A stretch of DNA of 64,000 nt from an uncultured Litoreibacter sp. (GTDB taxonomy: Bacteria > Pseudomonadota > Alphaproteobacteria > Rhodobacterales > Rhodobacteraceae), in NCBI GenBank assembly GCA_947501685.1, contig CANMWQ010000002.1, positions 576,949 through 640,948 of the forward strand. Reading direction: 5' to 3'. The notes below the pieces were generated by a model. That model was not told the origin of the DNA. It saw nothing but the letters and a program-made list of their open reading frames with translations, and did no database searches. Made by a program: the position numbers and the translations under genes. Position 1 is the first letter of the stretch. Every line of letters begins with the position of its first letter. This document shows, piece after piece, positions 37,124 to 58,656 of the stretch.

Positions 37124-37439
37124 CTTCTCTCTCATCGTTAGGCTAATAGCGGGTTAGCCCCTTCCCTTAGCCTAATGTGCCCCTGATAATGCCCCTCTTT
37201 TTGGTGGGGGATGAGGAGGATAAGGGGTACCTATTACGGGGGCGATAGGTATGAGTAATGGAATAGGGGGACCTAACGAGAAGACCCGGAACCACCACCC
37301 ATCGCCCATCATTATCCCCCCAAATAGGCTAACCGCTCTTGGAACACCCGTCTACGAGCCAGATACCCGGGAGAGCGATCCAGCCTACGCATTTCCAAGT
37401 AGTCCTCCACCAAGTGCAGGGTGTCTAGCTTCATCACAT
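37124..37439. other. Repeat-containing gap next to tRNA-Gln
   Basis: About 316 bases between the tRNA and the IS3-type element. It holds TTAGGCTAA (37138-37146) inverted as TTAGCCTAA (37167-37175), a third TAGGCTAA copy near 37325, and an ACCTAT/ATAGGT dyad near 37229-37250. Clustered inverted motifs beside a tRNA 3' end resemble integrase arm sites, but no integrase is present. A short reverse-strand gene remnant lies at its right end. Confidence 0.45.
37312..37434 (-). pseudogene. Short remnant of an unidentified gene cut by the IS element
   Basis: A 40-residue frame beginning MKLDTLHLVEDYLEMRRLDR and ending in RLAYLGG. It is helical and charged, protein-like in codon use, and stays open back to the IS boundary at 37440. 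The other side of the IS carries no continuation, so the 5' part seems to have been lost. I cannot assign a family. Confidence 0.3.
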
Positions 37440-37502
37440 TGGACCTGTCGCGGTTTGATGCCGCTCCTTTGATAGCATTTATTGCAACAAAGGAGACGAA
37501 TT

Positions 37503-37784
37503 ATGGGGCTGAAACGGACGGACGAATTTCGTGCTGATGCGGTGCGGATCGCGCTAACGAGTGGACTGACAAGGAGGCAGGTGGCTTCGGAACTAGGTGT
37601 TGGGCTTTCGACACTGAACAAGTGGGTCACGGCGCATCGTGACACCGAGATTGTGTCAGGCAAGGACCTCGACCTTGCCCGTGAGAACGAACGACTTCGG
37701 AGGGAAAATCGTATCCTGAAGGAGGAGAGGGACATTCTAAAAAGGCAACAGCGTTCTTCGCGAGCCAAAAGCCATGAGGTTTAG
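37503..37784 (+). CDS. IS3-family transposase OrfA
   Basis: A 93-residue helix-turn-helix DNA-binding protein starting MGLKRTDEFRADAVRIALTS and containing RRQVASELGVGLSTLNKW and a C-terminal leucine zipper (ENERLRRENRILKEERDILK). The ATG at 37503 matches the usual OrfA start; an earlier in-frame start would add seven residues. It overlaps orfB by 11 bases; CTAAAAAGG just before the overlap could promote frameshifting to make the OrfAB fusion. Confidence 0.88.
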   Translation: MGLKRTDEFRADAVRIALTSGLTRRQVASELGVGLSTLNKWVTAHRDTEIVSGKDLDLARENERLRRENRILKEERDILKRQQRSSRAKSHEV

Positions 37785-38631
37785 GTTCATCGAAGAGCAT
37801 GGCCGCGATTTCCCGACCAACCGTCTTTGCAAGGTTTTAGATGTCAGCGAACGTGGCCTGCGTGCCTATCGCAGTCGACCGGCCAGTCAAAGGCAACGGT
37901 CAGACATGGTCGTCCTGGCTCACATCAAAGAACAGTCTCGTCTCAGCTTGGGCAGCTACGGCCGTCCACGCATGACCGAAGAACTGAAAGAGCTGGGCTT
38001 GAACATTGGCCACCGCCGCGTCGGCAGGCTCATGCGTGAGAACGGCATCCGGGTTGAAAGATCAAAGAAATACAAGGTGACGACCGACAGCAACCACGCT
38101 TTCAACATTGCGCCGAACCTGCTGAACCGGGACTTCCGTGCCGACCAGCCGAACCAGAAGTGGGCAGGCGATATCAGCTACGTCTGGACCCGCGAAGGCT
38201 GGCTGTACTTGGCTGTCATCCTAGACCTGCATTCCCGGCGCGTGATCGGCTGGGCAGTCAGCAATCGCGTGAAACGTGACCTGGCAATCCGAGCATTGAA
38301 GATGGCCGTCGCGCTACGCCAGCCACCCAAAGGCTGCATTCATCATACGGATCGCGGCAGCCAATATTGCTCACACGACTACCAGAAGATACTGCGCCAG
38401 CATGGCTTCCAGGTATCGATGTCCGGCAAAGGAAATTGCTATGACAACTCCGCCGTTGAGACGATCTTCAAAACAATCAAAGCGGAGCTGATTTGGCGAC
38501 GGTCGTGGCAAAAACGACGGCAGGCTGAAGTGGCCATTTTCCAGTACATCAACGGCTTCTACAATCCGCGCCGAAGGCACTCAGCTTTGGGTTGGAAAAG
38601 CCCCTCAGCCTTCAAACGGAAAGTGGCTTAA
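37774..38631 (+). CDS. IS3-family transposase OrfB (DDE integrase domain)
   Basis: A 285-residue catalytic protein: HTH_21-like region GSYGRPRMTEELKELG, then the retroviral-integrase-type domain with first Asp in KWAGDISYVWT, second in HHTDRGSQYCS and Glu in NSAVETIFKTIKAELIW, ending in the YNPRRRHSALGWKSPSAF motif. All catalytic residues are present, so it looks active. Confidence 0.92.
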   Translation: MRFRFIEEHGRDFPTNRLCKVLDVSERGLRAYRSRPASQRQRSDMVVLAHIKEQSRLSLGSYGRPRMTEELKELGLNIGHRRVGRLMRENGIRVERSKKYKVTTDSNHAFNIAPNLLNRDFRADQPNQKWAGDISYVWTREGWLYLAVILDLHSRRVIGWAVSNRVKRDLAIRALKMAVALRQPPKGCIHHTDRGSQYCSHDYQKILRQHGFQVSMSGKGNCYDNSAVETIFKTIKAELIWRRSWQKRRQAEVAIFQYINGFYNPRRRHSALGWKSPSAFKRKVA

Positions 38632-38696
38632 ACGAGCACTTGGGGCGGCACTAAAGCGTGACAGGTCCAAGAAGCCAAATCGTAGTCTGTTCAAAG

Positions 38697-38747: not shown

Positions 38748-41700
38748 TTAGATAACGACGTCGACGTCTTCTTCAACCAAGATCTGCGCGCTGCCTGCTT
38801 CAAAGACATTCAACGTCTTTCCGTCGACACTTTGGGTCGTGCCAGTGTCCGTAAACCCGGAGGCATTTACGGTGTCGGTGTCGTCTCCCAATATCACGAG
38901 GGAACCAGAGTCCGTCGCGGAGAGGACATTCAGATCGGAGAGCGTCAGGGTCTGAGCCGTTCCGCCTTCCATATTGATGTACTCCAGATCCGTCACGTTC
39001 TCGACATTGCCAAAGTCCAGCGTCAGGCCAGCCGTATCCGCAAGGATCAGGTAGCCGTCAGAGTTGGCCGTGCCACTTTCCAGCGCCGCCAGATCAGCCG
39101 CGTCCAGTTCCACTTCTTCGCGGTCGGTTGAGCCATCGCCATCACTGTCGACTTCGTGGCGGTCAAAGACACCATCGTCATCAGTGTCCTGATCACTATG
39201 TAGAGCGTGATCCGTTACAACATTTGCTGGATCACTTGGGTCAAACGGTTGGACCCCAAAGGCGACGTCGTCATGATAGACGTTGCTAGCGGCGGACCAT
39301 TCGCCATGGTAGTAGAGACGCATTTCGTAGGTTTCTCCTGCCTCCAAGACCATTGCGTTATCAAACAAGATTTCAGTACTCGAAATCATCCCGGTGTCTG
39401 TAAGGACCTCTGTGTAGGTCTCGAACCCATCATTGCTCATCCGGATTGTAACCCCAGTGGTATGGGAAGTGACGTTGTTCACACGGATCGAGTTCATTGC
39501 AAGTGCATCCGTCCCGGCTGGGAATGTTTCTTGCATCTCGAACGCCAACTGAACGTAGTGGTCATCGGCAAATGGATCCAGATGTGCATCATCAACCGTA
39601 TCGAGCATGAATGCAGTGCCGCTCAGGTTCTTATCCTGAAGACCCGCGCCCAAATCACCACCAATCAAGTCTGGTGAGAAATAGTCTTGATCAAGCTCTG
39701 GAACGACCGCTTGGTTTGAATGGGCATTCAGGTTCAAGCTGTACTTCAGCGCAATTTGCTCTGCATAGGTCAAACTGGCGTCCGTGTATTCGCTCGGATT
39801 GTTCTGATGCAGACCAAAGGCCAAGGCCGAAGCATCTGATCCAAGATCAACCGTTTGAGACTTATTGGTCGCAGCCTCGTCACCATCCCAAATCCCGTCA
39901 CCATCGCTGTCGACGTCAAGGCTGTTGTTCACCCCATCACCATCAGCATCCGGGTAGGAAATAGTAAGAGGCGACCCACCGATTGTGAACGAGGTATTGG
40001 CGTTGATGGGTGAATCAATGATGTCGAAACTCAGGCTTCTAATGCCGCCGGCTTCAGCGATCATTTCATAGTCCAGTCCAACGAAGGTTACATGACCACC
40101 GGCCTGATCGTTGCCATCACCGCCATCTGGGTCGATGAGTGTGATAATACCATCGGAATTTACTGACCGCGCCGCAGTGTTGGCTGTTCCACCGCCCGAA
40201 AGGTTGACTGGATCAGCGACAACAAAGTCAAGGTTAGACAAGACCGTGCCGTTGTCTAACGTCATGGTAAAGTTGCCGATGGAGTTCCCTGCATAAAGTG
40301 AGGACACTTCAAAGGTCAGGTCAGCGAAAGCGCCGTCAAACTCTGACGTAATGGTGCCTTCTAGCGACTCGTTGTACGAGAAGCTCACACCGTTCGCGTT
40401 TGAGACCGTGCCGCCCCCGCTGCCAGTGACCGTCACACCGATGTCACCGATAGTGCCCGTTGCTTGGCCTGCGCTGAACGCTGTGTCAGCGGCAAGAGCG
40501 ATTGGTGCGAAGTCTTCAATAGTATCCAGAATACCATCGCCGTCGTCGTCGGTGTCAAAGCTGCTGGAAATGCCGTCTGCGTCGTGATCGTCTTGACCAT
40601 CGGCTTCCGTGATAAGCACGTGGTTCGTGCCCGTCGCGTTCGCGTCAAGCCCAAGGCGACCGCCGGACTCGGTCAGGTCATAGGCGTCATCCAAGCCGTC
40701 ACCATTGGCATCAAAACCGGAGGCTTCGATGAAGTCTTGGCCATATTGCGCTTCGACATTGTCACCCACGCCGCCGCCGTCGCTATCCGCGTCGAGGCTG
40801 TCGATGATGCCGTCGCCATCGGTATCCGGATTGGTATCCACGTTTGGATCAAATGGCGCGGACAGTTGGAAGTTATCCAGAGATGCATTTGGCGTTTGAT
40901 TGGACGCTTGTATTTCAGCGCCTGCTTCGTTCACCAATCTTGTCGCGGTGATTTCAAACCCAAGCTGTTGGCCGATAAGCGGGCTGCCCTCTTCGACCAC
41001 CAACTCGAAGGTCCATGTGTCGGTCTCGCCGGGCGCTATTGTCGCTTCGCTGATCGTGGTGCCGACACGGGCACCTGGTGATCCAGCATCTGTGCCGCCA
41101 ACGGTGAGCCCCGCTTCCAGATCAGGGAAGAACCCGTTCGCAAAATTACCAACGTCCACCGACAGGGTGTATGTGCCGGGTCCCACAATTTCCTGTAGCG
41201 CTTTATAAGCCACAGTTTGACCAAGCATGTCTGGATCATATGTAGGAGCCAAGTTTAGCGTGGCGTTCCCCTCAGTCGCATCAATCCCAGCCGCACCACT
41301 GTTTTGGAAGTTATGGTTGCCGACGACCGAAATATCGCCCGGTCCCTCCAGCGGAAGTGACGGTACACCCGGCTCATCCACATCCAGAATACCGTCATTG
41401 TCATCGTCGATATCAATCGAGTTCGCCACACCATCGGCATCGGTGTCCAAAGCAACGGTTTCGGTCGCGGTCGACACTGTGCCTTCAAGCGGGTGGCCGT
41501 CATGCACGGTTTGCGTCGCGGTGATCTCTGCCCCTTCTTCCAGCGGCATTGCCGGAATTGCGGACCATTCGCCGTTCTCGTCCACAGTGACCTCAGACGG
41601 GTCAAGCGGATCGCCGTTTTCATCGACCAAAGCGATGGGTTCCCCCTCGGCATCGGTCAGCACAACGGTCGAGCCGGGCACACCGAAGCCAGAGATCGTG

Positions 41701-44700
41701 GTGTCCAACCCGGTGACCAAATCGTCCGTTGAGAACGGCACCTCGTCCATCTCAGGCTCGCCTTGATAGACGTCCGGCGTGCCATCACCGTCGGTATCCG
41801 CTGGCGTCAGGCCAACAGAGTTTTCGGCCCCGTCAAGGTTGTCATCATAGGCATCATCAAGGCCGTCACGATCCGTATCAACACCACTTGGCGCGATGTA
41901 GGTCTGGTTGTACTGCACCTCAACATTGTCATCGATACCGCCATTGTCGCTGTCGGTATCCATTGCGTTGATGATACCATCGTTGTCGACATCATTGGTC
42001 TCAACACCACCACTGACCCGGACATAGATATCATCAATGGCGAAATCATTGCCACTTGCATTGGTCGAGATATTAAAAACCTCGATCGTAAAGTTGGTCT
42101 CTTCGCCAGTGTTGAGAATGTTCGAATGGTCAACCCAGTCGCTAGAAGTTTGCGGACCATCCGAGATCTCGGCAACGACTTCGCCTTCAGAGTTCAGAAC
42201 CCGCATACCAATCTCAAAAGGGTAGGTCGCTGCGCCTGACTGCAATATTGCGTTGGCAGCGTGAAAACCAAAATCGTATTCGGTATTTGCCGTGAGGGTT
42301 ATCTCTTCCGAGAAAAATACCCCTTGCGTCGTCCCGCCATTAATCACGAGGAACGCGCCCTCTGCGTCTCCGGTTGTGTTGTCCACCAGATGATCGAAAA
42401 GAGTCGCGCCGTGGAAGTTGTCTGCGCCAGCGGAATTCACAACGGCATATTGCCCGGCGCTATTGTTGTTAGCCCTGAAGGTGTAGCCGTCAACCCCGTT
42501 CTGGTCTTGCAAATCGCGGGAATTTCCGTCTGACAGGCTACCAAACGTACCTTCGAATTCGGCAACAAACAGAGAGGCGCTTTCGTTTACGTCCAGGATC
42601 CCATCGTTGTCATCATCGATGTCAACCACGTCAGCCACGCCGTCGCCGTCGCTATCCAGAAGGATATCGATGGGGCCAACCTCTTCCGAGGTCTGATCCC
42701 CAAGTGTTGCCACGCCGGTTACGGTGCCCGCAAAGCTTTCAAGATCAACTTCGCCTTGCGTGATCGGTCCCGGAACAGAGATGCCCAATTGGGTCAATTG
42801 GATGGATTGGTTGGTATCTACGGGCTGCGTGATGACCTCGAACCCTGTGCCAGCTGCGGCGCCTTCCGATGCAGTTGCTGTGACGGGATCGACTCGATTA
42901 TCGTCGAAGCCATAGTCATAGGCCTGCAACACAGTCCCAGATGACAAATCATTCGGTGCGTCCAGCAACGTCAAGGCAACTGCACCTGCAGCCGTATCGT
43001 TGCTTTGGAACCCTCCCTCAGCAGGGATCGTGAAGACGTAAGATCCGTCATCCGCCACATCAATGGACAGCGGCAAGCCACCCGTGACAGATGTTGGCAC
43101 ACTGCCTGTCATCTCGCCGGTTTCGGCCACGATCTGATCCATGACATCTTGCAGCGTGAATTCGGAAATGTTCGGGAAGAAGCTGCTGAAGGTGTTGTCC
43201 ACCAAGGTGCCATCGACCTCATAGAAGCTCAGCGCATAGCTGGTCAAATCCGTATTTGTTGGAACATAGAGCTCGACAAACTCTCCATCGCCTTCGCCTG
43301 AACCGGCAAACTTCACCTCGGTGATTTGAGGGGCAGGGGGCTCGACCGAGAACTCCCAAAGACCATCGGTGCCAACCTTAATCGGGCCATAATCCGTCCC
43401 ATTGATGTCCAGCACCACCTCAGAGCCGGGAACGCCCGTCCCTTCGATGATCGACGTGGTCGCATTCGTGATCTCCAGCGGCAAGCTGTCGATACCGTCG
43501 CCATCGGCCTCATACGCATCCGCCGTGCCGTTGCCGTCCGTATCCGCTGGCGTTAGACCAACCGAATCCTCGGCCCCGTCAAGGTTTTCGTCATAGGCAT
43601 CGTCCAGACCGTCGCCATCTACGTCTTCACCACTTGGCGCGATGTAGGTCTGGTTGTACTGAGCTTCTTCATTGTCGGAAGCGCCGCCATTGTCGCTGTC
43701 GGTGTCGAGAGCGTTGATAATGCCGTCACCATCAATGTCGTCGACAACTGCTTCAACGCTGATTGCGAGACCGTAAGAATTGTTGCCGGGATGACCGGTG
43801 CCTGCGTTGCCGGGCTCTTTGGTCATCGTGATGACCTCGCCGCCAGAGGTCTCTTCAAACTTGAAGTTTACGATGGTTTGCGCGCCTGTGATGGTCATTG
43901 TCATTCCATCGGCCGAGATCGTCGCTGCGCTGCTGAGGCCGCCCGGATGCGGTAGAACTGTAAAGCTGTCGACATCAACAGGTGTCGAGAAGTTGTAAAC
44001 ACCGGCTTCCGCCGAAGCGAGACTGAAAGTCACAACTGCGGTTTCAACCGTTGGGCCATCTTCAGGACCCGTGACAGAAACCGTCACAGTCTGGGCACCG
44101 TTGGCCAAAGGCTCGATGATGAACCCACCATTTCCTTCATGTGCAATGAAACGGTTGCCAGTATGGCTGACGTTCACGTCTGCGAAGTGCAAACCGTCCT
44201 CGGACACAAGCTGGGCGACGCCATCGAAGTCACCAGACACACCGGCTGTGTCATTGCCATTGATGGCGACCGGATCAGAACTGTTTGCTTCGAAAGTCGA
44301 AAGCTCGTTTACATCTAAGATGCCGTCATTGTCGTCGTCGATGTCGACTGTGTTCGCCACGTCATCTGCATCTGTGTCCAGAGCGGTAGTTTGTGTCACA
44401 CTCGATGGAGTGCCCTCAAGCGGATGACCTTCGGGCAAAGTCTGCGTCGCAGTCACCTCTGCCCCCTCTTCCAGCGGGGTGGCTGGAATTGCGGACCATT
44501 CGCCGTTCTCGTCTACCGTGACCACGGCCGGATCAAGCGGATCGCCGTTTTCATCGACCAGAGCGATCGGGTTATCGTCGGCATCTGTCAAAGCGATGGT
44601 TGAGCCGGGCACACCGATGCCTGAGATGATTGTCTCAAAACCAGCTACCAACGGGTTGATGAAAACAGGCGGTGTGTCTTCATCAGCCTCGCCTTGATAA

Positions 44701-47700
44701 ACATCCGGAATGCCATTGGAATCCGTATCTGCAGGGATCAAACCAACCGAGTTTTCTGCCCCATTCAGGTCGTCATCATAAGCGTCATCTAGACCATCAC
44801 CATCGACATCCTCACCGCTTGGCGCGACGTATGCTTGGTTGTACTGGGCCTCAATGTTGTCATTGACGCCACCATCGTCGCTGTCTGTCTCGAGGGCGTT
44901 GATAATGCCATCATTATCCGCGTCATCCAACACTTCATATTCAGCGCGCGAGATTCCAAGTTCGAACCCGTGAACATAGTTCAACGAGCTTGTGTCGTTG
45001 AACATCACATAGCGGACTGTGTTCTCTTGCCCGTTCAGCAATTGAACCGGTTCATCCAAAGTCAGCGCCTGAGATGTGTGACCAACTGAGTCGTAAACCC
45101 CGACATATTCACCGTTCACATAGACGGCAAAATCTCCGTAGAAACCGCCAATCAGATCTGTTCCGATGCTGCTCAGCGCAAGCTCACCTGCATCATCTTC
45201 GGCTGTCGTGAAGGCAATGTCGATGTAGTGGCCTGCCGCAAGTGCGTCTTCAGGCGTGGTATTTGCTACGGCACCTAGGTCAAACTGGTATGCATCGCCA
45301 TATTGGTCTGGGCGATCTGATATCTGAACATCGAAGTCTGGCCCAAAACGAACCGCAGCTCCCGAGACGACATGGTCTGAAACATTGTTTTCAGTCATCC
45401 CTCCTGGCAGGCCGCTTGCGTCATCGCTGAAGCGGATGCTGTAATCGGACGTCAGAGCGGTAAATTCGCCCAACTCCCCGACCAAAGCCTCGTTCACATC
45501 CAAAATGCCGTCATTGTCGTCATCGATGTCGACAGCGTTCGCCACACCGTCGGCATCCGTATCCAACGCAATCGATTGGGTTGCGGTCGATGTCGTGCCG
45601 TCGAGCGGATGATCTTCGGGGAAGGACTGCGTTGCGGTGACCTCGGCCCCCTCTTCCAGCGGCGTTGCTGGGGTCGCGGACCATTCGCCGTTCTCGTCTA
45701 CCGTGACCACGGCCGGATCGATTGGATCGCCGTTTTCATCGACCAGAGCGATGGGATCGCCCTCGTCATTGGTCAACGCGATGGTTGAGCCTGGCACGCC
45801 GATACCTGCGATTGTGGTATCCAGACCTGTCATCAATGGGTTGATCGTCAGTGGTGGCGTGTCTTCGTCTGGCTCGCCTTGATAGACATCTGGAATGCCA
45901 TCGGCATCGGTATCAGCTGGCGTCAAACCAACCGAGTTTTCGGCGCCGTCAGGGTTCTCGTCATAGGCATTGTCAAGCCCGTCACCATCATCGTCAAAAC
46001 CAGTTGGCGCGACATATGTCTGGTCGTATTGGGCTTCAATGTTGTCGCCGATCCCGCCATCGTCGCTGTCGGTATCCAAGCTATGGTCGGTGGTCTCATA
46101 GTCAGCGCGCTCAAAATTCCAGCCAAAGCTATCGAACATAAACGCAGGGTTAGGATCTGTGCCTGTGTAGTTGTACGGCACAAACAGGACCGTATGTTCT
46201 GTGTCATTGCCAAGAGGGAAAGGGCCATCCGGGATCGTATAGTTCACGCCGTTGGCGGTAATCTCAATTTCACCAATGATCTCGCCATCTAGCACGATAG
46301 CGGCATTGCCGCGGAATGCGCCGTTGCGTGGCTCAAACCCTTCTAACGCCAGAACCCGATCAGGGTTGTCAGTCGTTGTGAAATTCATTTCCACATAAGC
46401 GCCCGCATCAATCGCATCTTGTGCCGTTGCAAAGCTCATGTTCTCCGGAGGAACGTCGGTGGCAAGATGACTGCCGCCTTCACCAGTGGTCGCCTCAAGG
46501 CCTGGTCCATAGGAAATCACCGAACCCGGATCGGTTACAACGTCGGCTTCGATGTTGTTCAGCTCCAATCCACCCGGGAATGGGAAAGCCTGATCAAACG
46601 TCGGGTTACCAGTGAAGTTGTTATGATCGAAAAACAGATGAGGGAACCCGGACGGGGCGCCTGCATCCAGCGTCGGGGCACCGAACTCACCCAATGAGAC
46701 AGAATTGTCATTCACATCCAAGATGCCATCGCCGTCGTCATCAATGTCGATCGTGTTCGCCACGCCGTCCGCATCTGTGTCCAGAGCGGTCACTTCAGTT
46801 GCGGTCGATGTTGTGCCTTCAAGCGGGTGACCTTCTGGCAAAGTTTGCGTTGCGGTGACCTCGGCCCCCGCTTCCAGAGGCGTTGCCGGAATTGCGGACC
46901 ACGCACCGTTTTCGTCGACGACAACTTCGGATGGATCAAGTGGATCGCCGTTTTCGTCGACCAGAGCAATAGGATTGCCCTCTACATCGGTTAGCTCAAT
47001 GACAGAGCCTGGGACACCCAGACCCGAGATCGTTGTCTCGAGACCGGTCACCAATGGATTTACGGACACTGGTGGTGTGTCTTCGCCCGGCTCACCCTGA
47101 TAGACATCAGGGGTCTCATCATCATCCGTATCAGCTGGCGTCAGACCAACCGAGTTCGCAGCACCCGTAAGGTCTTCGTCATATGCATCGTTCAAGCCAT
47201 CGCCGTCTTCATCGACGGGATTGCCATCTTCATCAAACAACGGTGCGACATAGGTCTGGTTAAGCTGGGCTTCGGCGTTATCCGAGATGCCACCATTGTC
47301 GCTGTCAGTATCAAGCGAGTCGATGATGCCGTCGTTGTCAAAATCGATGTCGATAACTGCAATATTGATTGAAGTCAGACCGTTCGTTGCATCACTGTCA
47401 CCGCGAACACCGAAAGTGCTCACAGGTTCATTGGTTGTTAATGTCCAAGTTGCATCGCCCGCTGGCAGATCCGAGGTGCCAGCTTCGCGGAAGATCAAAA
47501 TGCCATCTTCGTTGCTAACAATTTCCAGCTGTCCATCAGGGTCATGGACGGAGAAACCGCCCAAGGCTTCCAGACGGATTTCATCGCCATTCCCGCCTAC
47601 GACAGGATCAAATTCGGCCACGCCGTTCGTTTCGTGCGTAAACTGAATGACAAGCGGCTCGCCCAAGTTGAACTCGACGTGGTCACCCATTGAAGAGTTT

Positions 47701-49526
47701 GGCTCAGGGTTTGGATTGTCTGGATCAACAACATCAGTGACAAAACCTTGCAGGTTTAGGTTGCCAATCGCATCACCACCTTGATCGGCCGACGATTCCG
47801 GCGTCCCGGTCAAATTCTGTGTCACATCCCGTTGATATGTCGCCTCAAGGCTGACCGTCCGGTCGCCAAGATCAATATCCGCCAGCGGTTGCGTCACCCC
47901 ACCGGCCTGCGTCTCAAACTCCTCAATGATAGGGCCGGGACCAAATTCGATGAAGGAGCCGTGCAAACCACTCAGGTCGAGTGTAACGGGATGCCCCGCC
48001 TCGTTCGTATCCAAAATTCCATCGTTGTCATCGTCAATGTCAACGGTGTTCGCAACGCCGTCGCCATCTGTATCCAAGGCAAGATTTGCCTCAGCTGTAC
48101 CGACATTACCAAGCTCATCAGATTGCTGAGCAGAGATCTCAGCGCCCTCTTCCAGCGGTGTTGTCGGCTCAAAAGTCCAGTTCCCATCATCGTCTGTCGG
48201 TGCTGTGCCAATAAGGTTGTCTTCGGCATCAAAGATCGAAACGGTGCCATTCGGCTCGCCGGTGCCAGACACAAGAGTGTTCAGGCCGGTCACCAAAGAG
48301 GCAATCGTTACAGATGGCGGCGTTACATCGACGTCGAGTTCGTCAGTCGTCGCGTCGGACGCCGTATTACCAAGCGCGTCTGTTGCAGTCACCTCGACAT
48401 CGGCTAAGCCGTCCGTCAGAAGTGTGAACGTGCCCGCGGTCGGCTCTGCGGTCTCTGTGTTCAAGGTCCAGACGCCATCTTCGTTGGCTGTAACCTCAAA
48501 GGTCGCGCCGCCCAATGTCACCTCAACAGTCGCGCCACCTTCGGCGGTTCCGGTCAAGACTGGTGTCGGGTCGTTGGTTTCTTGAGCATCGATGGTTGGC
48601 ACATCTGTCTGTGCATCTACGGTCGCGTTTGTCGGGCCATTCATGTTCCCGGCAGGATCAACCTGAGTGACCGACAAAACGGTGCCGTGCGGGATTTCGG
48701 TCGGCGCGATGCTCCATGTGCCGCCTTCGGTAACCACTGCGGTAAGCGGCGTGACCAGGCCGGGATATGTGACAGTGACAGTTGCGCCGGGTTCGCCGAT
48801 GCCAGACAGCTCCGTGCCGTCCGTTGGCTCAACTGTTAGTGCGTCGATCATCGTGTCGACTTCAAGCTCGCCCGTTGTTACGTCTGAAACGACGTTTCCA
48901 AGTTCATCAGTCGCAGTCAGCTCGACATCATATGTCCCATCGGCCAACGGCGTGAAGACACCATCAACGGGTATCGCAGTGGCCGTATCCAAGGTCCAAT
49001 TGCCATCTTCATCGGCGGTAACTTCGAATGTGGCATCGCCCAATGTAACTTCAACCGACGCATTGGCTGCCGCGGTCCCCACCAACACAGGAGAGGCATC
49101 GTTAGATAGAATAGAGTCAACTGTCGGAGTTTCAGGCGCGCTGACAGCAGTGTCTTCAGACCCGCTTCCACCTCCTGCAGCACCGATTGCAGCGAGGCCC
49201 AATCCAGCACCTCCGGCAGCCGCTGCTCCGCTCAATCCTGCAACTGCAGTTTCGACGCCGGTAAAGTAGAGCGCCTTGTCGAAAGCAAAGTGTTCGAAAT
49301 AGTTAACGAGACGGATTGTCTCTCCAGAAGCCAGTTGGAGCACCATATCCTGTCCGACGCGCACCGCTTCGACAACCAGGTCTTGATCAAACTCAAAGGA
49401 AACAGCTTTATGGCTTGCTGTGACTTCATAGGTGGATTGAACGCCCTGTTCAACTTTTAGCACCGCGTTGCCGTCATTGGCAGAGATGCTGCCTTGATTG
49501 ATCAATTCAGAAATTTTGACTTCCAT
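38748..49526 (-). CDS. Giant type I-secreted adhesin with BapA-like prefix, Ig-like and TSP3 repeats
   Basis: A 3592-residue acidic protein. The ATG at 49526 is chosen because GGAGAAG lies just before it. Layout: a BapA-like prefix domain (1-95); an Ala/Gly hinge with AAAAGG at 101-106; three or four bacterial Ig-like modules (about 130-480); then a long repeated region. Calcium-binding thrombospondin-type-3 blocks (DTDADGVANTVDIDDDNDGI pattern) start near residues 482, 914, 1317, 1714, 2289, 2690, 2975 and 3190. Unrelated beta-rich inserts of about 150-225 residues follow each. A lamin-tail-like segment lies near 2067. The C-terminus (about 3440-3592) has the hydrophobic acidic end usual for type I secretion. 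No Sec signal. Secretion genes lie nearby on the same strand. Likely a surface or biofilm adhesin. Confidence 0.88.
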   Translation of the reverse strand: MEVKISELINQGSISANDGNAVLKVEQGVQSTYEVTASHKAVSFEFDQDLVVEAVRVGQDMVLQLASGETIRLVNYFEHFAFDKALYFTGVETAVAGLSGAAAAGGAGLGLAAIGAAGGGSGSEDTAVSAPETPTVDSILSNDASPVLVGTAAANASVEVTLGDATFEVTADEDGNWTLDTATAIPVDGVFTPLADGTYDVELTATDELGNVVSDVTTGELEVDTMIDALTVEPTDGTELSGIGEPGATVTVTYPGLVTPLTAVVTEGGTWSIAPTEIPHGTVLSVTQVDPAGNMNGPTNATVDAQTDVPTIDAQETNDPTPVLTGTAEGGATVEVTLGGATFEVTANEDGVWTLNTETAEPTAGTFTLLTDGLADVEVTATDALGNTASDATTDELDVDVTPPSVTIASLVTGLNTLVSGTGEPNGTVSIFDAEDNLIGTAPTDDDGNWTFEPTTPLEEGAEISAQQSDELGNVGTAEANLALDTDGDGVANTVDIDDDNDGILDTNEAGHPVTLDLSGLHGSFIEFGPGPIIEEFETQAGGVTQPLADIDLGDRTVSLEATYQRDVTQNLTGTPESSADQGGDAIGNLNLQGFVTDVVDPDNPNPEPNSSMGDHVEFNLGEPLVIQFTHETNGVAEFDPVVGGNGDEIRLEALGGFSVHDPDGQLEIVSNEDGILIFREAGTSDLPAGDATWTLTTNEPVSTFGVRGDSDATNGLTSINIAVIDIDFDNDGIIDSLDTDSDNGGISDNAEAQLNQTYVAPLFDEDGNPVDEDGDGLNDAYDEDLTGAANSVGLTPADTDDDETPDVYQGEPGEDTPPVSVNPLVTGLETTISGLGVPGSVIELTDVEGNPIALVDENGDPLDPSEVVVDENGAWSAIPATPLEAGAEVTATQTLPEGHPLEGTTSTATEVTALDTDADGVANTIDIDDDGDGILDVNDNSVSLGEFGAPTLDAGAPSGFPHLFFDHNNFTGNPTFDQAFPFPGGLELNNIEADVVTDPGSVISYGPGLEATTGEGGSHLATDVPPENMSFATAQDAIDAGAYVEMNFTTTDNPDRVLALEGFEPRNGAFRGNAAIVLDGEIIGEIEITANGVNYTIPDGPFPLGNDTEHTVLFVPYNYTGTDPNPAFMFDSFGWNFERADYETTDHSLDTDSDDGGIGDNIEAQYDQTYVAPTGFDDDGDGLDNAYDENPDGAENSVGLTPADTDADGIPDVYQGEPDEDTPPLTINPLMTGLDTTIAGIGVPGSTIALTNDEGDPIALVDENGDPIDPAVVTVDENGEWSATPATPLEEGAEVTATQSFPEDHPLDGTTSTATQSIALDTDADGVANAVDIDDDNDGILDVNEALVGELGEFTALTSDYSIRFSDDASGLPGGMTENNVSDHVVSGAAVRFGPDFDVQISDRPDQYGDAYQFDLGAVANTTPEDALAAGHYIDIAFTTAEDDAGELALSSIGTDLIGGFYGDFAVYVNGEYVGVYDSVGHTSQALTLDEPVQLLNGQENTVRYVMFNDTSSLNYVHGFELGISRAEYEVLDDADNDGIINALETDSDDGGVNDNIEAQYNQAYVAPSGEDVDGDGLDDAYDDDLNGAENSVGLIPADTDSNGIPDVYQGEADEDTPPVFINPLVAGFETIISGIGVPGSTIALTDADDNPIALVDENGDPLDPAVVTVDENGEWSAIPATPLEEGAEVTATQTLPEGHPLEGTPSSVTQTTALDTDADDVANTVDIDDDNDGILDVNELSTFEANSSDPVAINGNDTAGVSGDFDGVAQLVSEDGLHFADVNVSHTGNRFIAHEGNGGFIIEPLANGAQTVTVSVTGPEDGPTVETAVVTFSLASAEAGVYNFSTPVDVDSFTVLPHPGGLSSAATISADGMTMTITGAQTIVNFKFEETSGGEVITMTKEPGNAGTGHPGNNSYGLAISVEAVVDDIDGDGIINALDTDSDNGGASDNEEAQYNQTYIAPSGEDVDGDGLDDAYDENLDGAEDSVGLTPADTDGNGTADAYEADGDGIDSLPLEITNATTSIIEGTGVPGSEVVLDINGTDYGPIKVGTDGLWEFSVEPPAPQITEVKFAGSGEGDGEFVELYVPTNTDLTSYALSFYEVDGTLVDNTFSSFFPNISEFTLQDVMDQIVAETGEMTGSVPTSVTGGLPLSIDVADDGSYVFTIPAEGGFQSNDTAAGAVALTLLDAPNDLSSGTVLQAYDYGFDDNRVDPVTATASEGAAAGTGFEVITQPVDTNQSIQLTQLGISVPGPITQGEVDLESFAGTVTGVATLGDQTSEEVGPIDILLDSDGDGVADVVDIDDDNDGILDVNESASLFVAEFEGTFGSLSDGNSRDLQDQNGVDGYTFRANNNSAGQYAVVNSAGADNFHGATLFDHLVDNTTGDAEGAFLVINGGTTQGVFFSEEITLTANTEYDFGFHAANAILQSGAATYPFEIGMRVLNSEGEVVAEISDGPQTSSDWVDHSNILNTGEETNFTIEVFNISTNASGNDFAIDDIYVRVSGGVETNDVDNDGIINAMDTDSDNGGIDDNVEVQYNQTYIAPSGVDTDRDGLDDAYDDNLDGAENSVGLTPADTDGDGTPDVYQGEPEMDEVPFSTDDLVTGLDTTISGFGVPGSTVVLTDAEGEPIALVDENGDPLDPSEVTVDENGEWSAIPAMPLEEGAEITATQTVHDGHPLEGTVSTATETVALDTDADGVANSIDIDDDNDGILDVDEPGVPSLPLEGPGDISVVGNHNFQNSGAAGIDATEGNATLNLAPTYDPDMLGQTVAYKALQEIVGPGTYTLSVDVGNFANGFFPDLEAGLTVGGTDAGSPGARVGTTISEATIAPGETDTWTFELVVEEGSPLIGQQLGFEITATRLVNEAGAEIQASNQTPNASLDNFQLSAPFDPNVDTNPDTDGDGIIDSLDADSDGGGVGDNVEAQYGQDFIEASGFDANGDGLDDAYDLTESGGRLGLDANATGTNHVLITEADGQDDHDADGISSSFDTDDDGDGILDTIEDFAPIALAADTAFSAGQATGTIGDIGVTVTGSGGGTVSNANGVSFSYNESLEGTITSEFDGAFADLTFEVSSLYAGNSIGNFTMTLDNGTVLSNLDFVVADPVNLSGGGTANTAARSVNSDGIITLIDPDGGDGNDQAGGHVTFVGLDYEMIAEAGGIRSLSFDIIDSPINANTSFTIGGSPLTISYPDADGDGVNNSLDVDSDGDGIWDGDEAATNKSQTVDLGSDASALAFGLHQNNPSEYTDASLTYAEQIALKYSLNLNAHSNQAVVPELDQDYFSPDLIGGDLGAGLQDKNLSGTAFMLDTVDDAHLDPFADDHYVQLAFEMQETFPAGTDALAMNSIRVNNVTSHTTGVTIRMSNDGFETYTEVLTDTGMISSTEILFDNAMVLEAGETYEMRLYYHGEWSAASNVYHDDVAFGVQPFDPSDPANVVTDHALHSDQDTDDDGVFDRHEVDSDGDGSTDREEVELDAADLAALESGTANSDGYLILADTAGLTLDFGNVENVTDLEYINMEGGTAQTLTLSDLNVLSATDSGSLVILGDDTDTVNASGFTDTGTTQSVDGKTLNVFEAGSAQILVEEDVDVVI

Positions 49527-50161
49527 TAATCTTCTCCGGTTCATTCAATAAAAATTTTCGGCCGGAATGCCGCCCACCGAATTCTTGATCTAATTTTCCG
49601 TAAATGAACCCGAATACCTTGACGGAACCTTGGCCAAAAAGGGATTTTCAGAAATCTTCTTAGGAGTGAGGTTGGGTTTCGGTGAAGGGCTTCCGAGACG
49701 CTTAAACACTTGAGAATAAATCAAAAAATTTCTGACTGCCTCTTGGTGCGGAGCAATATCCCTCGCCGGGGATCGCTCCAAGACACATTGCAGCCACAAT
49801 CCGTCCAAAGTTCCAGAAGTTCTTCAAAACTCTTCAAATTACTATTGTCGAAGATTTGGAAACGATTCTTCTGTCTGCTCGCGCCCTATCTGACAATACC
49901 CTTGATTATCCGATGACCAAACGACAGCAGGCAATTTGGATGATTTAAGCGCTGCCGATTGCACGCTTGCGGGCAATCCAAATCAAGAATCAACAAGGCT
50001 TCTAATGTTTCTCCGTTGGAAAAAGTTCCAGTAGAAAGATAAAATTGAACACATTTAGGACTTACATGTGGTGAAACTTAGTCATCTTTGAGTGCCAATT
50101 TTGACAGAATTATGTCTATCATCCTAACCCAAGAGAATGGTTTTTTGTGTGTGAGTTGAGT
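49527..50161. other. AT-rich divergent promoter region
   Basis: About 635 bases with no credible gene. It separates the adhesin gene from the M48-type lipoprotein and must carry both promoters. It is clearly more AT-rich than the core genome. I see scattered GAAGTTCTTC / TTCCAGAAG-like near-repeats around 49810-49835 but no firm operator or RNA gene. Confidence 0.5.
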
Positions 50162-50827: not shown

Positions 50828-52075
50828 TTAGCCCTTCGAAATGTTCCAGAAGTGCCCACCCTCTTCTGCGAGCTCGCGCTGCAGGTTCAGAATGCGATAC
50901 TTCAAACGAAGTTTGGTTTCCATTGACTGGCGCATGGTTTCTAGCAGGCTGGCTGCCTCTGTAAGGTTTGCTGTACCGGCACGGAACTGATCAGAGAAGT
51001 TGTGAAATCTCGATTTGGATTGCATCATCAGGCTCTCGGTCTCCAAATGCTGCGCCTGGAGTGCGGAGATCCGCGCCCGTTTGCGTTCAGTCTGACGTTC
51101 AGCTTCCTTAACGGTCATTTTGAGTTTGTGCTCAGCCAAAGCAAGCTCCTGCGCTGCGAATTTGACGCCGACATTGCCGCCAATGGCTATCGGTGCGGAA
51201 TCAATAGTGAGACCAACCCCAGAGGACGGAAGACCATTTATGGGATCATATCCCGCGTTCCCTTCCAAAATCAGTTGAGGATTGGTTTCTTTGCGGGCCA
51301 GCTTCAATGCGCTGTCTCGAAACTCGCGGTACGCAATGGCTTCGACGATGGTTAAGGGAAGATGCGTCTCATGAAATCGGAATGGAGCAACCGGTTTTTC
51401 AGCAATTTCAGCGCCCAAAATCGCCAAATCAGCGTCAGCGTCAGCTTCCGCAATCCGTGCATCGGTCCGGATCTCGGAGAGCTTCAGTTGAAACAATGAA
51501 ACTTCGCTGTCCGATCCGACACCGCCATTGACACGTGTCTCCGCCAAATCGACCAAGTCTTGGAAATACTCCGCGATACCCGTCAACAAGGACGCGACCT
51601 CGATATTCTCTTTGTAATTCAAGTAGGTTTCGATTTCCTTCGACGCTTCAGCATTCAGCTCGCGCAGTAGCTCTACCTGCTTCAAGACCGCTTCATGATC
51701 ATCGCTAGAATGCTGAGCCTTAAACACCCCACCATCGTAGAGCACTTGTTTGACACTGACATTCAGATCGACAACGCCCCGCGCACGAGCACTCATCCCA
51801 GGTTTAAGTTGTGGGAGCAGGCTTTGCCGGTTGCTGAGGCGAGAAATTTCCAATGTGCGGAGGTTGTTGTCGAAACCAAATCTCATTTCGTCGTATTTTG
51901 CGGAGATCAGGCTCGAATATGGATCATCCTGCGAAGGCAGCAGGAAAGTTTCATTCGCACTGCCTTGAGCAGACACAACGGGCTGCGCGTAAGAGGTAAG
52001 CGCCGAGTTCACCTCGGTTTCTTTCGTCGCGCAACCTGCGAGCACTAAGAAGAGTAATGCGTATTTCCAGCCCAT
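50828..52075 (-). CDS. TolC-family outer-membrane protein (lipoprotein)
   Basis: A 415-residue outer-membrane efflux/secretion channel protein with a lipobox signal (MGWKYALLFLVLAGCA) and long amphipathic helices typical of TolC (LLRELNAEASKEIETYLNYK, VKEAERQTERKRARISALQA). Two OEP-like halves are apparent. It lies on the same strand as the HlyD and ABC genes and probably completes the type I system, though 350 bases separate it from hlyD. It is shorter than many T1SS TolC proteins. Confidence 0.85.
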   Translation of the reverse strand: MGWKYALLFLVLAGCATKETEVNSALTSYAQPVVSAQGSANETFLLPSQDDPYSSLISAKYDEMRFGFDNNLRTLEISRLSNRQSLLPQLKPGMSARARGVVDLNVSVKQVLYDGGVFKAQHSSDDHEAVLKQVELLRELNAEASKEIETYLNYKENIEVASLLTGIAEYFQDLVDLAETRVNGGVGSDSEVSLFQLKLSEIRTDARIAEADADADLAILGAEIAEKPVAPFRFHETHLPLTIVEAIAYREFRDSALKLARKETNPQLILEGNAGYDPINGLPSSGVGLTIDSAPIAIGGNVGVKFAAQELALAEHKLKMTVKEAERQTERKRARISALQAQHLETESLMMQSKSRFHNFSDQFRAGTANLTEAASLLETMRQSMETKLRLKYRILNLQRELAEEGGHFWNISKG

Positions 52076-52425: not shown

Positions 52426-53583
52426 TCAGGGCTCGCGAAGCGCCTCGCTCGACTTAACCAACGGCTTTATGAGATACTGAAACACGGTTTTTTCACCAAC
52501 ATGAACTTCTGCGTCGGCAAGCATCCCGGGACGGATCTCTACCACTTGATCATGCTTTGGGAAGGAATAATCATCCACTGATATCAAGACTTTGTAGTAT
52601 GGCTGCCCATCTGGCGAAGACTCGTCTTCGAATGTGTCCGCACTCACCTGCGCAATTTTGCCGCTTAGGCTGCCGTAAACGGTATAGTCATAAGCACTTA
52701 GTTTGACAGTGGTTTCCATGTCATTTGCGACGAATGCGATGTCTTTGGGCTGGATTCTCACCTCAACCAGCATTTCATCATTGAGCGGCGTGATCTCAAA
52801 AATGGGCTCACCTGGCTGCACCACTCCACCGATCGTGGTTGTATAGATCGTGTTCACGATACCTTCTGACGGAGACACCAATCTAGAGCGCTCCAGCTGG
52901 TCTCGGCTCTGTTCAATCTGCGCACGCAGCCGCGCCATCTCTGCGACAAGGGTTGAGATTTCTTCCGACCTTTGCAGCTCGAACTCGGCCAATATGCGGT
53001 CCCGCGCCGCCCTCGCCTCGCCTTGAGCCAGTTTCTCGTTCAACAAATCGATCTCTGGCATCGCGTTCTTTGCGACAAGGCCCGTCATCAATTCAACCTT
53101 GTCGGTCCGCAATTGAAGCTGCTCTTCGGCATCCGCCAATTCGGACTGAAACTGCAACATGCGCGCTCTGAACAGCTGCAGCTCGGATGCGGCAAGTTCT
53201 GGATCTGCATCGCTCAGTGCATTCGGTAGGACGAGGTTGGTTTGGCGGTCGAGTTCTGCTTGCAACCTGGCCAGTTTTGCTGAGTTGGAGCGGATCTGAC
53301 TTTCAAAATCCTCAACCTCAGCGCGGTAGCGTGTCTCGTTCAGCTTTGCGAGCACTTGCCCTGCGACAACCTTGTCGCCTTCACGTACATTTATCTCATC
53401 CAAGATGCCGCCTTCTAGGCTTTGAACAACTTGGGCATTGCTCGAGGGAACCAAGACGCCAGAACCGCGCACGATCTCATCCAGAGGTGCGTTTCGCGCC
53501 CAGACTATGAAAGCGATGACAAACGCGGCAAGGATCCAGATTAGCTTGGAAGTGCCTCTTCTTTGTTCTGTCGCAGCTTTCAT
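52426..53583 (-). CDS. HlyD-family type I secretion periplasmic adaptor
   Basis: A 385-residue membrane-fusion protein: short cytoplasmic N-tail, one transmembrane helix (about 13-28, LIWILAAFVIAFIVWA), a split lipoyl-like domain (SLEGGILDEINVREGDKVVAGQ), long coiled-coil hairpin (about 85-230), and the C-terminal beta-barrel with PVDEMLVEVRIQPKDIAFV-like block and YDYTVYGSLSGKIAQVSAD. It bridges the ABC exporter and TolC. Its start overlaps the ABC gene stop (ATGA). Confidence 0.93.
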   Translation of the reverse strand: MKAATEQRRGTSKLIWILAAFVIAFIVWARNAPLDEIVRGSGVLVPSSNAQVVQSLEGGILDEINVREGDKVVAGQVLAKLNETRYRAEVEDFESQIRSNSAKLARLQAELDRQTNLVLPNALSDADPELAASELQLFRARMLQFQSELADAEEQLQLRTDKVELMTGLVAKNAMPEIDLLNEKLAQGEARAARDRILAEFELQRSEEISTLVAEMARLRAQIEQSRDQLERSRLVSPSEGIVNTIYTTTIGGVVQPGEPIFEITPLNDEMLVEVRIQPKDIAFVANDMETTVKLSAYDYTVYGSLSGKIAQVSADTFEDESSPDGQPYYKVLISVDDYSFPKHDQVVEIRPGMLADAEVHVGEKTVFQYLIKPLVKSSEALREP

Positions 53584-55709
53584 GACTGTTTGCTCCGGAG
53601 TTTATTCAAGACTTCGTCACGGCCCCCGATCATCGCAAGTTGCCCTTCATTTAGAACCGCGATCCTATCGCATAGAGAGATGATTTCTGTGCGATGCGTT
53701 GTCAGAATACATGTCTTGGGTGCAAGCCATTCCCTCATCTTCAGGATCGTCTCAGCTTCGAGGGTTTGATCCATCGCAGCGGTGGGTTCATCCAAGAGTA
53801 GGATTTGCGGATCCGCCAGGAAAATGCGCGAAAGCCCCAGCGACTGCCGCTGCCCAACAGACAATCCCATGCCGCCATCGGCAACGGCCATATCCAAGCC
53901 CATCGGGTGACGTTCAACCATATTCCAAAGCCCAGAGAACCGTAACGACTCTTCGAGCTGGGCTTCCGAGAAAGGTCTTGGACCCAAGGTTAGGTTGTCG
54001 CGCAATGTGCCAGAGAACAACACGACATCTTGCGTCAGAACGCCCATGTTGCGACGCAGATCGACCGGGTCAATCTGGCGAAGTTCCAACCCATCAACAC
54101 GCACCTCCCCGCCTTCAAAGTCATACAAGCCAGACAAGATTTTGAGCAATGTAGACTTGCCAGACCCGTTGCGACCCAAGACAGCCAGTGTTTCACCAGC
54201 ATTGACCGTGAGTTTTGGTAGCTTCAAAACCTCGTCCTGATCTTCGCCATACCGAAAACGCAGGTCCGAAATATCAATGCGCCCAAGGAACACGCCGCGC
54301 CTCGAGTACTGCCGCCGGAAATCACGCTCTTGCTCGGAATGAACAATTTGGTCCAACCCCTCTAGCGCCACTCTTACCTGTTGCCACCGGGAGATCGCTC
54401 CGGATAGCTGAGTGATTGGCGCAATGGACCGTGACGTCAAAATACTGACAGCAATAATGGCACCAACAGTGAACTCGCCAGCCAGAACCATGTAGACGCC
54501 AACGACCACTGCCGAGATATAAGCAATCTGCTGCACGCCTTGCGACATGAAGGTCAATCGGGCTGATACGGCACGTTGTTCCTGCACTTTGGCAGAAATC
54601 AAAAGCGAAATGTCTTCCCAGGTTTGTTGGAACCTGTTTTCCGCCCGATGCAATTTGATGGCCTCGGCGCCATATGTGATCTCATTCAGCAGCTGGCTTT
54701 GTGCCGAGTTGGCGCCTTGCATATCTTCCGAAATGCGGCTCAGAGAGCGCCGCGCAAAAATGCTGAGCAGGATGATGACGCCCATCGCGGCAATGATGAC
54801 CCAGACAACCGGCCCTGCAATGAGATATATCAGCCCCAGGAAGACAAAGACGAATGGTATGTCGGATATAGACCCCATCGCAGTCGCCGTGAAGAATTCC
54901 CTGATCGCTGAAAACTCCCGCATCATCGACCCAAGCGCGGCGGGCCCCATTTGCCGACCGCCAAGCCGCATCCCCTGTAATTTCCCTAAAATCTCGGCAC
55001 TCAATACGATGTCGACTTGCCGCCCCATATCATCGACCAACCGCCCGCGAGAGATCTTGAGAAGTGCTTCAAATACAATCGCGACCAACGCCCCCGCCGC
55101 CAAGACCCACAAGGTTTGAAACGATGCGTTGGGAATAACCCTGTCGTAGACTTGGAGTGCAAATAAGGAAACCGCAACTGCCAGGAGGTTTGCAACGATG
55201 GTCGCCACTAGTATTTCAAGCGTAAACCAACGCTGGCTTGTTATATGTTTCCAGAACCAATGACCCCGGTCTTGAATTCCGACGCGACGGTCCTGCAGCG
55301 CCTCAATTGTCGGGGCGGCGACCAGGTACGATTTCGAAAATGCGGCATCCATGTCCGCTTCACTCACGTTTCGAAATGTCCCTGGCGTCTCCAGGTTCGC
55401 GACAACATACGTGCCGTCTGCAAAAGAAATGATATTATGAAATGAGCCATCAATCATCTTGGCACAAACCGGAAAATTGACATCCCTCAGATGTCGCGCT
55501 GTTCGCAGCTCGCCAACATGTCCCAACCGCCGCAACGCTCTGATCGCGTCCTCGACATCAAAACTATCCGCTGACACGGGCAGGCCTGCTATTAACTCGT
55601 CTGCTGAGACCGGCTGGCCAATCAAACCCAAATAATTTGGCAAGGCCGATAATAATGCGGATTGGGTTTCGGCCGTTCGACTCTCGCCTTCATCTGCGCC
55701 TGTTTCCAC
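53580..55709 (-). CDS. Type I secretion ABC transporter (LapB/HlyB type)
   Basis: A 709-residue exporter. Residues about 15-130 are a C39-peptidase-like domain without the catalytic cysteine, as in adhesin/RTX exporters. About 155-440 hold six membrane helices. About 480-705 are the ATPase with Walker A LGRNGSGKSTLLKIL, signature LSVGQRQSLGLSRIF and Walker B ILLLDEPTAAMD. The inactive C39 domain implies cargo with an uncleaved C-terminal signal, matching the giant adhesin downstream on the same strand. Confidence 0.94.
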   Translation of the reverse strand: METGADEGESRTAETQSALLSALPNYLGLIGQPVSADELIAGLPVSADSFDVEDAIRALRRLGHVGELRTARHLRDVNFPVCAKMIDGSFHNIISFADGTYVVANLETPGTFRNVSEADMDAAFSKSYLVAAPTIEALQDRRVGIQDRGHWFWKHITSQRWFTLEILVATIVANLLAVAVSLFALQVYDRVIPNASFQTLWVLAAGALVAIVFEALLKISRGRLVDDMGRQVDIVLSAEILGKLQGMRLGGRQMGPAALGSMMREFSAIREFFTATAMGSISDIPFVFVFLGLIYLIAGPVVWVIIAAMGVIILLSIFARRSLSRISEDMQGANSAQSQLLNEITYGAEAIKLHRAENRFQQTWEDISLLISAKVQEQRAVSARLTFMSQGVQQIAYISAVVVGVYMVLAGEFTVGAIIAVSILTSRSIAPITQLSGAISRWQQVRVALEGLDQIVHSEQERDFRRQYSRRGVFLGRIDISDLRFRYGEDQDEVLKLPKLTVNAGETLAVLGRNGSGKSTLLKILSGLYDFEGGEVRVDGLELRQIDPVDLRRNMGVLTQDVVLFSGTLRDNLTLGPRPFSEAQLEESLRFSGLWNMVERHPMGLDMAVADGGMGLSVGQRQSLGLSRIFLADPQILLLDEPTAAMDQTLEAETILKMREWLAPKTCILTTHRTEIISLCDRIAVLNEGQLAMIGGRDEVLNKLRSKQS

Positions 55710-57732: not shown

Positions 57733-58656
57733 GTGGCACAGGACATTCTTCTTTTAGCTGCATCTCGGGCGCTCTCTTTGCACTCGATTTACAAGGCTGG
57801 CAAAGAAGCGGCGTACCAGACGTTCTGCGAAATGCGCTGGGCTGAGGGCGAGGCTGTTTGCCTATGCTGTGGTTATGGCGAGGCGTACAAGATCACCACG
57901 CGCCGCAAGCTCAAATGTAAGGCGTGTCATCACCAGTTTAGCGTCACGTCCGGCACAATCTTTGTAAGCTGCAAGCTGCAAGATGGACTTTGTGGACCTA
58001 TTGGCCGCGATCTACATCCTTGTGAATGCGCCCAAGGGCGTTTCAATGGTTCAACTGTCCCGCGATCTGGATTGTCAGTACGAGACGGCTTTCTCCTGTC
58101 TCGCAAGCTGCGTGAGGCCATGGCGCAAAAGATTCACACGGGCAAAGTTCTGGAAGGCCACGTTGAAATCGACGGCGCGTATTTTGGCGGTCACATTCGC
58201 CTAGAGAACGCCGAGAAAGACCGCAAGGACCGCCGCTTGAAGCGTCACCAGACAGGTAAGCGTCGGGTTGTAGTCGCCATGCGGGAGCGTGACGGTCGCA
58301 CCCTGCCATTCGTCGGCATGTCGGAAGCCGAGGGCGTTGCACTGGTAAACGAGAACGTCTCGCGCCCGTCCACAATGTCCGCCAACGAAGCGTCACACTG
58401 GGACGAGTTGCACATGGGTTACCACCTTGACCGCATAAACCACTCCGAGAATTACTGCGACCACGGTAAGCACACGAACATGGTTGAGAGCTTCTTCTCG
58501 CGTCTGTGCCGCATGGTTCAAAGCCAGCACCGCCACGTCTCCCCAAAATACCTTCACTAGGACGCAAACCACGCTGCATGGTTGGAAAACAACCGTCGCA
58601 CACCGAATGGCGACTGGGCGAAGATCATGGTCAGCAATTCGATGAAGCGCCTGTGA
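57733..58656 (+). pseudogene. IS1595-family transposase, damaged
   Basis: A 307-codon frame. It has the zinc-binding N-terminus (CLCCGYG ... CKACHHQF), then EIDGAYFGGHIR, and HTNMVESFFSRLCRMV near the end. A 7-base repeat (GCAAGCT) near 57968-57980 shifts the frame, and a one-base loss near 58095 restores it. About 40 residues in the middle are therefore scrambled; the expected DFVDLLAAIYILVNAPKGVS is readable in another frame. A TAG at 58558-58560 then truncates the C-terminus before DANHAAWLENNRR. It is probably inactive. Confidence 0.85.

Follow-up and report, generated by a model that had tools for sequence, protein, structure and literature searches.

Locating the binding module in giant adhesins is a bottleneck. 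In the closest described systems the module is held by a companion domain: passages of two reports (PMC12077191, PMC10865825) describe ligand-binding domains that project from split Ig-like domains of the RTX adhesins MpIBP, FrhA and AhLap, and part of a third (PMC7493085) describes extender regions stiffened by calcium in their linkers. Display from a split domain is thus already known; what seems new at the locus reported here is a socket made of thrombospondin type 3 (TSP3)-like blocks, together with measured exchange of the modules that it holds. A literature search covering titles and abstract beginnings returned no report of TSP3 blocks as sockets and no test of insert exchange against flanks, and the word 'thrombospondin' does not occur in the portions of PMC8286594 and PMC12153261 that were covered. 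The locus lies within a 64,000-nucleotide stretch of the genome of an uncultured Litoreibacter sp., hereafter the window, and our main reading, to which we give a probability of about 0.7, is that it encodes a type I-secreted adhesin with TSP3-like sockets holding exchangeable, predicted sugar-binding modules that have been reordered among relatives.

The adhesin gene is the single long open reading frame of its interval and lies on the minus strand at 38748..49544 (3,598 aa; plus-strand coding is ruled out by stops in that reading). Its ATG is at 49544, and the true start is likely the internal MEVKIS at 49526; a copy of 3,592 aa is present in the database, among the matches listed. Motif scans reveal 27 DxDxDG[VIL] loops across the protein and a recurrent order of Ig-like domain, TSP3-like block 1, insert, TSP3-like block 2 and Ig-like domain, in which block 1 ends in DDDNDGILD or a variant and block 2 reads DTDSDNGG...EAQYNQTY...TPADTD or variants. 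Tandem DxDxDG loops are the defining feature of thrombospondin type 3 repeats. Eight inserts, each of 179-225 aa, are set between DxDxDG blocks, and a ninth interrupts an Ig-like domain rather than the TSP3-like blocks. The initial annotation had given the interval as 38748-49526, an end that fits the internal start, although the frame runs on the minus strand from the ATG at 49544; its repeated units and eight insert positions are confirmed here, while the ninth insert had been missed. The TSP3-like blocks score at best 19.5 bits (TSP3_bac, in the block between inserts 7 and 8) and 14.7 bits (TSP_3) against curated Pfam models, below the cut-offs of 25 in every case, yet they retain the DxDxDG loops; the blocks are predicted to bind calcium.

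All features of the protein are given here by minus-strand coordinates. The N-terminal region (residues 1-140, 49125..49544) resembles the BapA prefix at scores below cut-off (PF22783, 21.8 bits against 27; NF033677, 33.8 against 35, in the N-terminus alone), and the relatives P0003 and P0004 pass the PF22783 cut-off. Four Ig-like domains follow (residues 141-490, 48075..49124), with Big_13 and Big_6 (Pfam) and Ca_tandemer (NCBIfam) matches. Unit 1 comprises block 1 with its DxDxDG loops (residues 491-516, 47997..48074), insert 1 of family c1 (residues 517-731, 47352..47996) and block 2 (residues 732-822, 47079..47351). Ig-like domain 2 (residues 823-921, 46782..47078) leads into unit 2, where block 1 (46704..46781) and block 2 (45861..46079) enclose insert 2 of family c0 (residues 948-1155, 46080..46703), and Ig-like domain 3 (residues 1229-1327, 45564..45860) leads into unit 3, with block 1 at 45486..45563, insert 3, also of family c0, at residues 1354-1538 (44931..45485) and block 2 at 44676..44930. 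After Ig-like domain 4 (44379..44675), insert 4 of family c7 (residues 1749-1933, 43746..44300; GldM_3rd match below cut-off) sits between block 1 (44301..44378) and block 2 (43509..43745) of unit 4.

Ig-like domain 5 is the split one. Together with its insert it covers residues 2013-2296 (42657..43508), and the ninth insert, of family c4, occupies residues ~2048-2238 (42831..43403), these inner boundaries being approximate and set by eye; a lamin-tail match to this insert has an E of 0.12, and family c4 splits an Ig-like domain in 4/4 adhesins carrying it, as judged by eye. Unit 5 consists of block 1 (42579..42656), insert 5 of family c3 (residues 2323-2515, 42000..42578) and block 2 (41745..41999). 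Ig-like domain 6 (41448..41744) precedes unit 6, with block 1 at 41370..41447, insert 6 of family c5 at residues 2726-2904 (40833..41369) and block 2 at 40590..40832; then come block 1 of unit 7 (40512..40589) and insert 7 of family c2 (residues 3012-3198, 39951..40511). One TSP3-like block (39870..39950) stands between inserts 7 and 8. Insert 8 (residues 3226-3450, 39195..39869) is again of family c0, and a last TSP3-like block with DxDxDG loops (39105..39194) is followed by a C-terminal module (38748..39104), likely the secretion signal, which is similar by eye in 7/7 adhesins whose C-terminus was inspected and has no NCBIfam match.

The flanks of the inserts are conserved. Block 1 shows 69-88% protein identity between units 1-6 (unit 7, 54-62%), block 2 shows 70-77% between units 1-5 (unit 6, 49-55%), and the Ig domains of units 2, 3, 4 and 6 share 69-79%, with the Ig before unit 1 at only 41-45%; at the DNA level the regular flanks are 67-82% identical between units. 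The longest exact DNA repeat in the gene, 44 nt in two Ig flanks, is longer than any produced by 50 synonymous randomisations (mean 20.2, maximum 29), and exact repeats of at least 24 nt within the gene are confined to the Ig and block 2 flanks. Such repeats may allow block 1, insert and block 2 to be moved together by recombination. The nine inserts fall into seven sequence families: inserts 2, 3 and 8 form one family (profile-profile probability 100%), and pairs between families among the nine reach at most 12% (hhalign). By pairwise BLAST, inserts 2 and 3 are clearly linked (E 9e-16), and the pairs that follow are at 0.001 to 0.015. Column-shuffled control profiles gave probabilities of at most 1% in 110 comparisons, and real representatives of different families from the wider set of eight adhesins gave at most 42.4% in 55 comparisons, one of them above 20. 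The units had been described as near-identical, which overstates flank identities of ~70-88% in protein between most units; the inserts had been described as differing and unrelated, which holds for the seven families but not for inserts 2, 3 and 8.

What the inserts resemble is clearest for insert 5, whose family matches 2zez, the solved module of an endoglucanase, with an E of 1.8e-6 over profile positions 61-190 of 192, and also matches the xylanase module 1k42 (CBM4-2) in the PDB profile search (E 0.016); we take 2zez to be a carbohydrate-binding module of family CBM16. Insert 6 is the only one above a Pfam cut-off (PF22825, HpiC1-like, 35.4 bits against 27). For inserts 1, 2, 7 and 8, the Pfam search gave nothing up to E 10. 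Structure models are of middling quality (mean pLDDT 66.5 for insert 2 and 64.1 for insert 7, with structural matches near background level); models and profiles together indicate beta-sandwich folds for inserts 2, 5, 6 and 7. The inserts are predicted to be beta-rich and sugar-binding. They could share a distant fold, since beta-sandwiches resembling carbohydrate modules or cyclases are indicated by two models and two profile searches.

The closest comparison comes from L001, a 3.2-kb metagenome contig labelled uncultured Rhodobacteraceae, which belongs to a close relative. This contig keeps inserts 2 and 3 and has a different insert family upstream: its order is c9-c0-c0 where the window's adhesin has c1-c0-c0. 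The stretch at the c1 position, L001:157-651, is of family c9, which it has in common with P0006. Inserts 2 and 3 are 87.5% and 96.8% identical to their counterparts, while the Ig between them is 41% identical. Synonymous differences per site amount to 0.83 in insert 2, to 0.51 and 0.37 in the two halves of insert 3, and to 0.05 in the block 2 that follows, in which 104 bases are identical. The comparison is thus a mosaic at the DNA level; its most similar stretch is the contig's very end, where a chimeric assembly is possible. Because its protein sequence is kept at saturated synonymous divergence while the Ig changes, insert 2 appears to be under strong constraint. The contig L002, labelled Parvularculaceae and encoding P0003, is less telling on exchange: insert 5 (70% identical) barely exceeds its block 2 (64%) in conservation and falls below its block 1 (88%). 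P0003, of 4,425 residues and built from the same cassettes, also carries RTX repeats (HemolysinCabind) near residue ~1065 and FG-GAP repeats near residue ~3758.

The same junction occurs in other proteins. Among the relatives listed (120 of 453 giant relatives, the window's own copy included), we chose P0014, P0018 and P0061, proteins of Gaetbulibacter, Nonlabens and Chryseobacterium, all Bacteroidota, for their named lectin-type Pfam domains, a choice that is biased by design. In seven of the eight Pfam placements checked in them, the domain has a DDDNDGI block on one side and the next DxDxDG block on the other. These seven are LamG twice, PA14, C-type lectin, legume lectin, and F5/8 C and DUF7402, which share an insert; the eighth, F5/8 C in P0061, falls outside a socket. 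More widely, the TSP3 junction served to extract 628 candidate inserts from 167 proteins. The Pfam scan covered 51 proteins of the fetched loci with 122 non-redundant socket inserts, of which no more than 27 gave a match to any family at 1e-3 (LamG, F5/8 C, PA14, CshA_NR2, MAM and others), so that most, at least 95 of 122, are not known binding domains.

This scarcity of Pfam matches would also be expected if the inserts were structural spacers or elaborations of the stalk that bind no ligand, their diversity reflecting drift or the avoidance of immunity or phages, and the nine modules of this one protein do exceed the three ligand-binding domains described for AhLap in the part of PMC12077191 consulted. 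We consider this explanation unlikely in view of the strong constraint on insert 2 (88% protein identity to L001 at synonymous saturation), of the known sugar-binding domain families found at this junction in other proteins, and of the carbohydrate-module-like family of insert 5.

The reading of exchangeable sugar-binding modules was examined further by comparing eight adhesins: the window's protein, P0003 to P0007, L001 and L003 (the sequences of L001, L003 and P0007 being partial, those of P0005 and P0006 apparently cut at the start). Their 42 inserts form 11 families by single linkage at 95%, of which 10 are found in two or more adhesins and in differing orders; all seven families of the window's adhesin recur elsewhere, and its order of c1-c0-c0-c7-c3-c5-c2-c0 (the Ig-embedded c4 omitted) may be set beside c5-c2-c5-c2-c3 in P0003. 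Leaving out L001, flank similarity and insert similarity are uncorrelated (Mantel r -0.017, p 0.61; 27 cassettes, 7 adhesins, 5,000 permutations). Flank identity is 0.502 in the 15 same-family pairs between proteins and 0.503 in the 290 other between-protein pairs, and the nearest flank lies within the same protein for 14/27 cassettes as against 4/22 for the nearest insert (score >0.15). Adding L001 brings out a weak correlation (r 0.098, p 0.007; 30 cassettes), which fits inheritance of whole cassettes between close relatives.

These comparisons bear on the possibility that all the inserts stem from a single ancient module that was duplicated together with its flanks and diverged fast, in which case inserts and flanks should have the same phylogeny. 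Several observations lean that way, namely the single family of inserts 2, 3 and 8, the similar lengths (179-225 aa), the beta-sandwich indications, the weak correlation once L001 is included, and 15 insert pairs with hhalign probabilities of 30-95% (two within c3, eight c1-c2 pairs at 30-44%), from which some families may be distant kin. Nevertheless, insert 2 is conserved against L001 where the adjoining Ig is not, the opposite of fast insert divergence; without L001 flanks and inserts vary independently; the families recur across adhesins; and differently named lectin domains occupy the junction elsewhere. We therefore regard a single diverged module as quite improbable. The initial annotation had named one diverged family with the phylogeny of the flanks as the finding that would speak against exchange; the flanks gave no such signal, apart from the weak correlation with L001 added. 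Its picture of exchangeable modules on a conserved scaffold stands on an evolutionary scale, in families common to and reordered among adhesins, and its cassette system for varying adhesion finds support between lineages only. That the protein instead bears enzymes, with catalytic inserts of, for example, a cyclase-like kind, is very improbable, for although insert 6 matches the HpiC1 cyclase family, its match to PDB cyclases is weak (best E 0.0024, over roughly the C-terminal half of the cyclase chains) and the remaining inserts have no enzyme-family match at 1e-3.

The genomic setting is consistent with type I secretion. Upstream of the adhesin and on the same strand lie genes for a TolC-like outer membrane channel (50828..52075; PF02321, 43.7 bits; TIGR01844 below cut-off), an HlyD-type adaptor (52426..53583; TIGR01843, 322.3 bits) and an LssB-type type I secretion ABC transporter (53580..55709; TIGR03375, 686.7 bits against a cut-off of 693.1), and secretion genes adjoin the adhesin in L002 also; within its 23 kb, L003 shows no type I secretion genes nearby except an ABC stretch of 26% identity. 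Between the adhesin and the TolC-like gene, on the opposite strand, an open reading frame at 50147-50818 (+) has an M48 peptidase match (48.6 bits). An insertion sequence with an rve transposase (37439..38670, plus strand; open reading frame 37774-38631) carries inverted repeats of 29 nt that are 83% complementary, and its end lies 77 bases beyond the adhesin stop; an IS1595-type transposase gene lies beyond the secretion genes (57733..58560, plus strand). A protein with a Hint_2 domain (122 bits) is encoded at 34522-35619 (+), ~2 kb from the insertion sequence. GC content is 58-64% before 34 kb and 49-56% from 38 kb on (49-57% over ~34000-64000), a drop suggesting that the adhesin and secretion genes lie in acquired DNA.

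A scaffold piece (block 2, Ig and block 1) matched 0/384 other genomes of the class at 1e-8, and the first 2,990 residues, searched in 20 other genomes of the genus, gave matches only in G002 and G006, where the Ig parts of frames of 1,260 and 1,091 aa were hit. For the ABC transporter, identity is 67% to its match in G013 and 42-46% to the best copies in twelve other genomes of the genus; seven more had no match at 1e-60. In one stretch of G006 (L140, G006:C1:406000-425999), an adhesin with Ig parts, accompanied by ABC and HlyD genes, adjoins the orthologue of window positions 61543-62838, in a gene order different from that of the window. We infer that an older adhesin locus was likely replaced by an acquired one. 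A LapG-type protease (PF06035) had 0 matches in the organism's own genome (98.99% complete, 16 contigs); of 14 control genomes for this search, the Caulobacter one gave a match.

Together, these results suggest how the protein may work. The neighbouring type I secretion genes would export the adhesin, which is likely exposed at the cell surface; calcium would stiffen its Ig and TSP3 parts; the predicted calcium-binding TSP3-like blocks would act as sockets, each interrupted by an inserted module; and the modules would be displayed outward, since the two ends of each would come together at the split. There they may bind polysaccharides or glycoconjugates, and units of block 1, insert and block 2 would have been exchanged by recombination in the conserved flanks. 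The adhesin is then likely a stiff stalk whose predicted sugar-binding heads were exchanged during evolution, and it offers bacterial adhesion a case in which the swapping of heads on a conserved stalk can be measured.

A wider proposal, which we put forward tentatively and at slightly less than even odds, is that the TSP3 junction DDDNDGILD / DxDxDGxxNxLDxDSD is a general display socket in Alphaproteobacteria and Bacteroidota, used with two secretion routes, through which glycan-binding modules are traded by flank recombination; the sequence between the blocks would then mark a ligand-binding module, including where it belongs to no known family, and could reveal many undescribed lectin families. 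If the junction is a socket, the module can be excised from sequence alone.

Like the RTX adhesins MpIBP, FrhA and AhLap, as far as the cited passages describe them, the window's adhesin is giant, likely type I-secreted and built so that a module interrupts another domain, as read from its sequence (a TSP3-like block or an Ig), and its ninth insert uses a split Ig as theirs do; unlike them, it mainly uses a TSP3-like block as the socket, eight times over in the one protein. As in LapA-type RTX adhesins, type I secretion genes are adjacent, whereas RTX repeats (HemolysinCabind gave nothing in the adhesin up to E 1) and LapG were not detected. The BapA-prefix-like N-terminus, Ig repeats and neighbouring type I secretion genes recall BapA-type adhesins, with N-terminal scores that lie below cut-off. 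The same-genus frames in G002 and G006 differ in having no DxDxDG loop in the parts examined (870 and 1,091 aa). Insert 5 is like the carbohydrate-binding modules 2zez and 1k42 by profile match, although its host protein here is no enzyme. Finally, the Bacteroidota proteins P0014, P0018 and P0061 have the same junction, a DDDNDGI block, an insert and a DxDxDG block, and several of the listed relatives are named for T9SS sorting domains, an export route other than type I.
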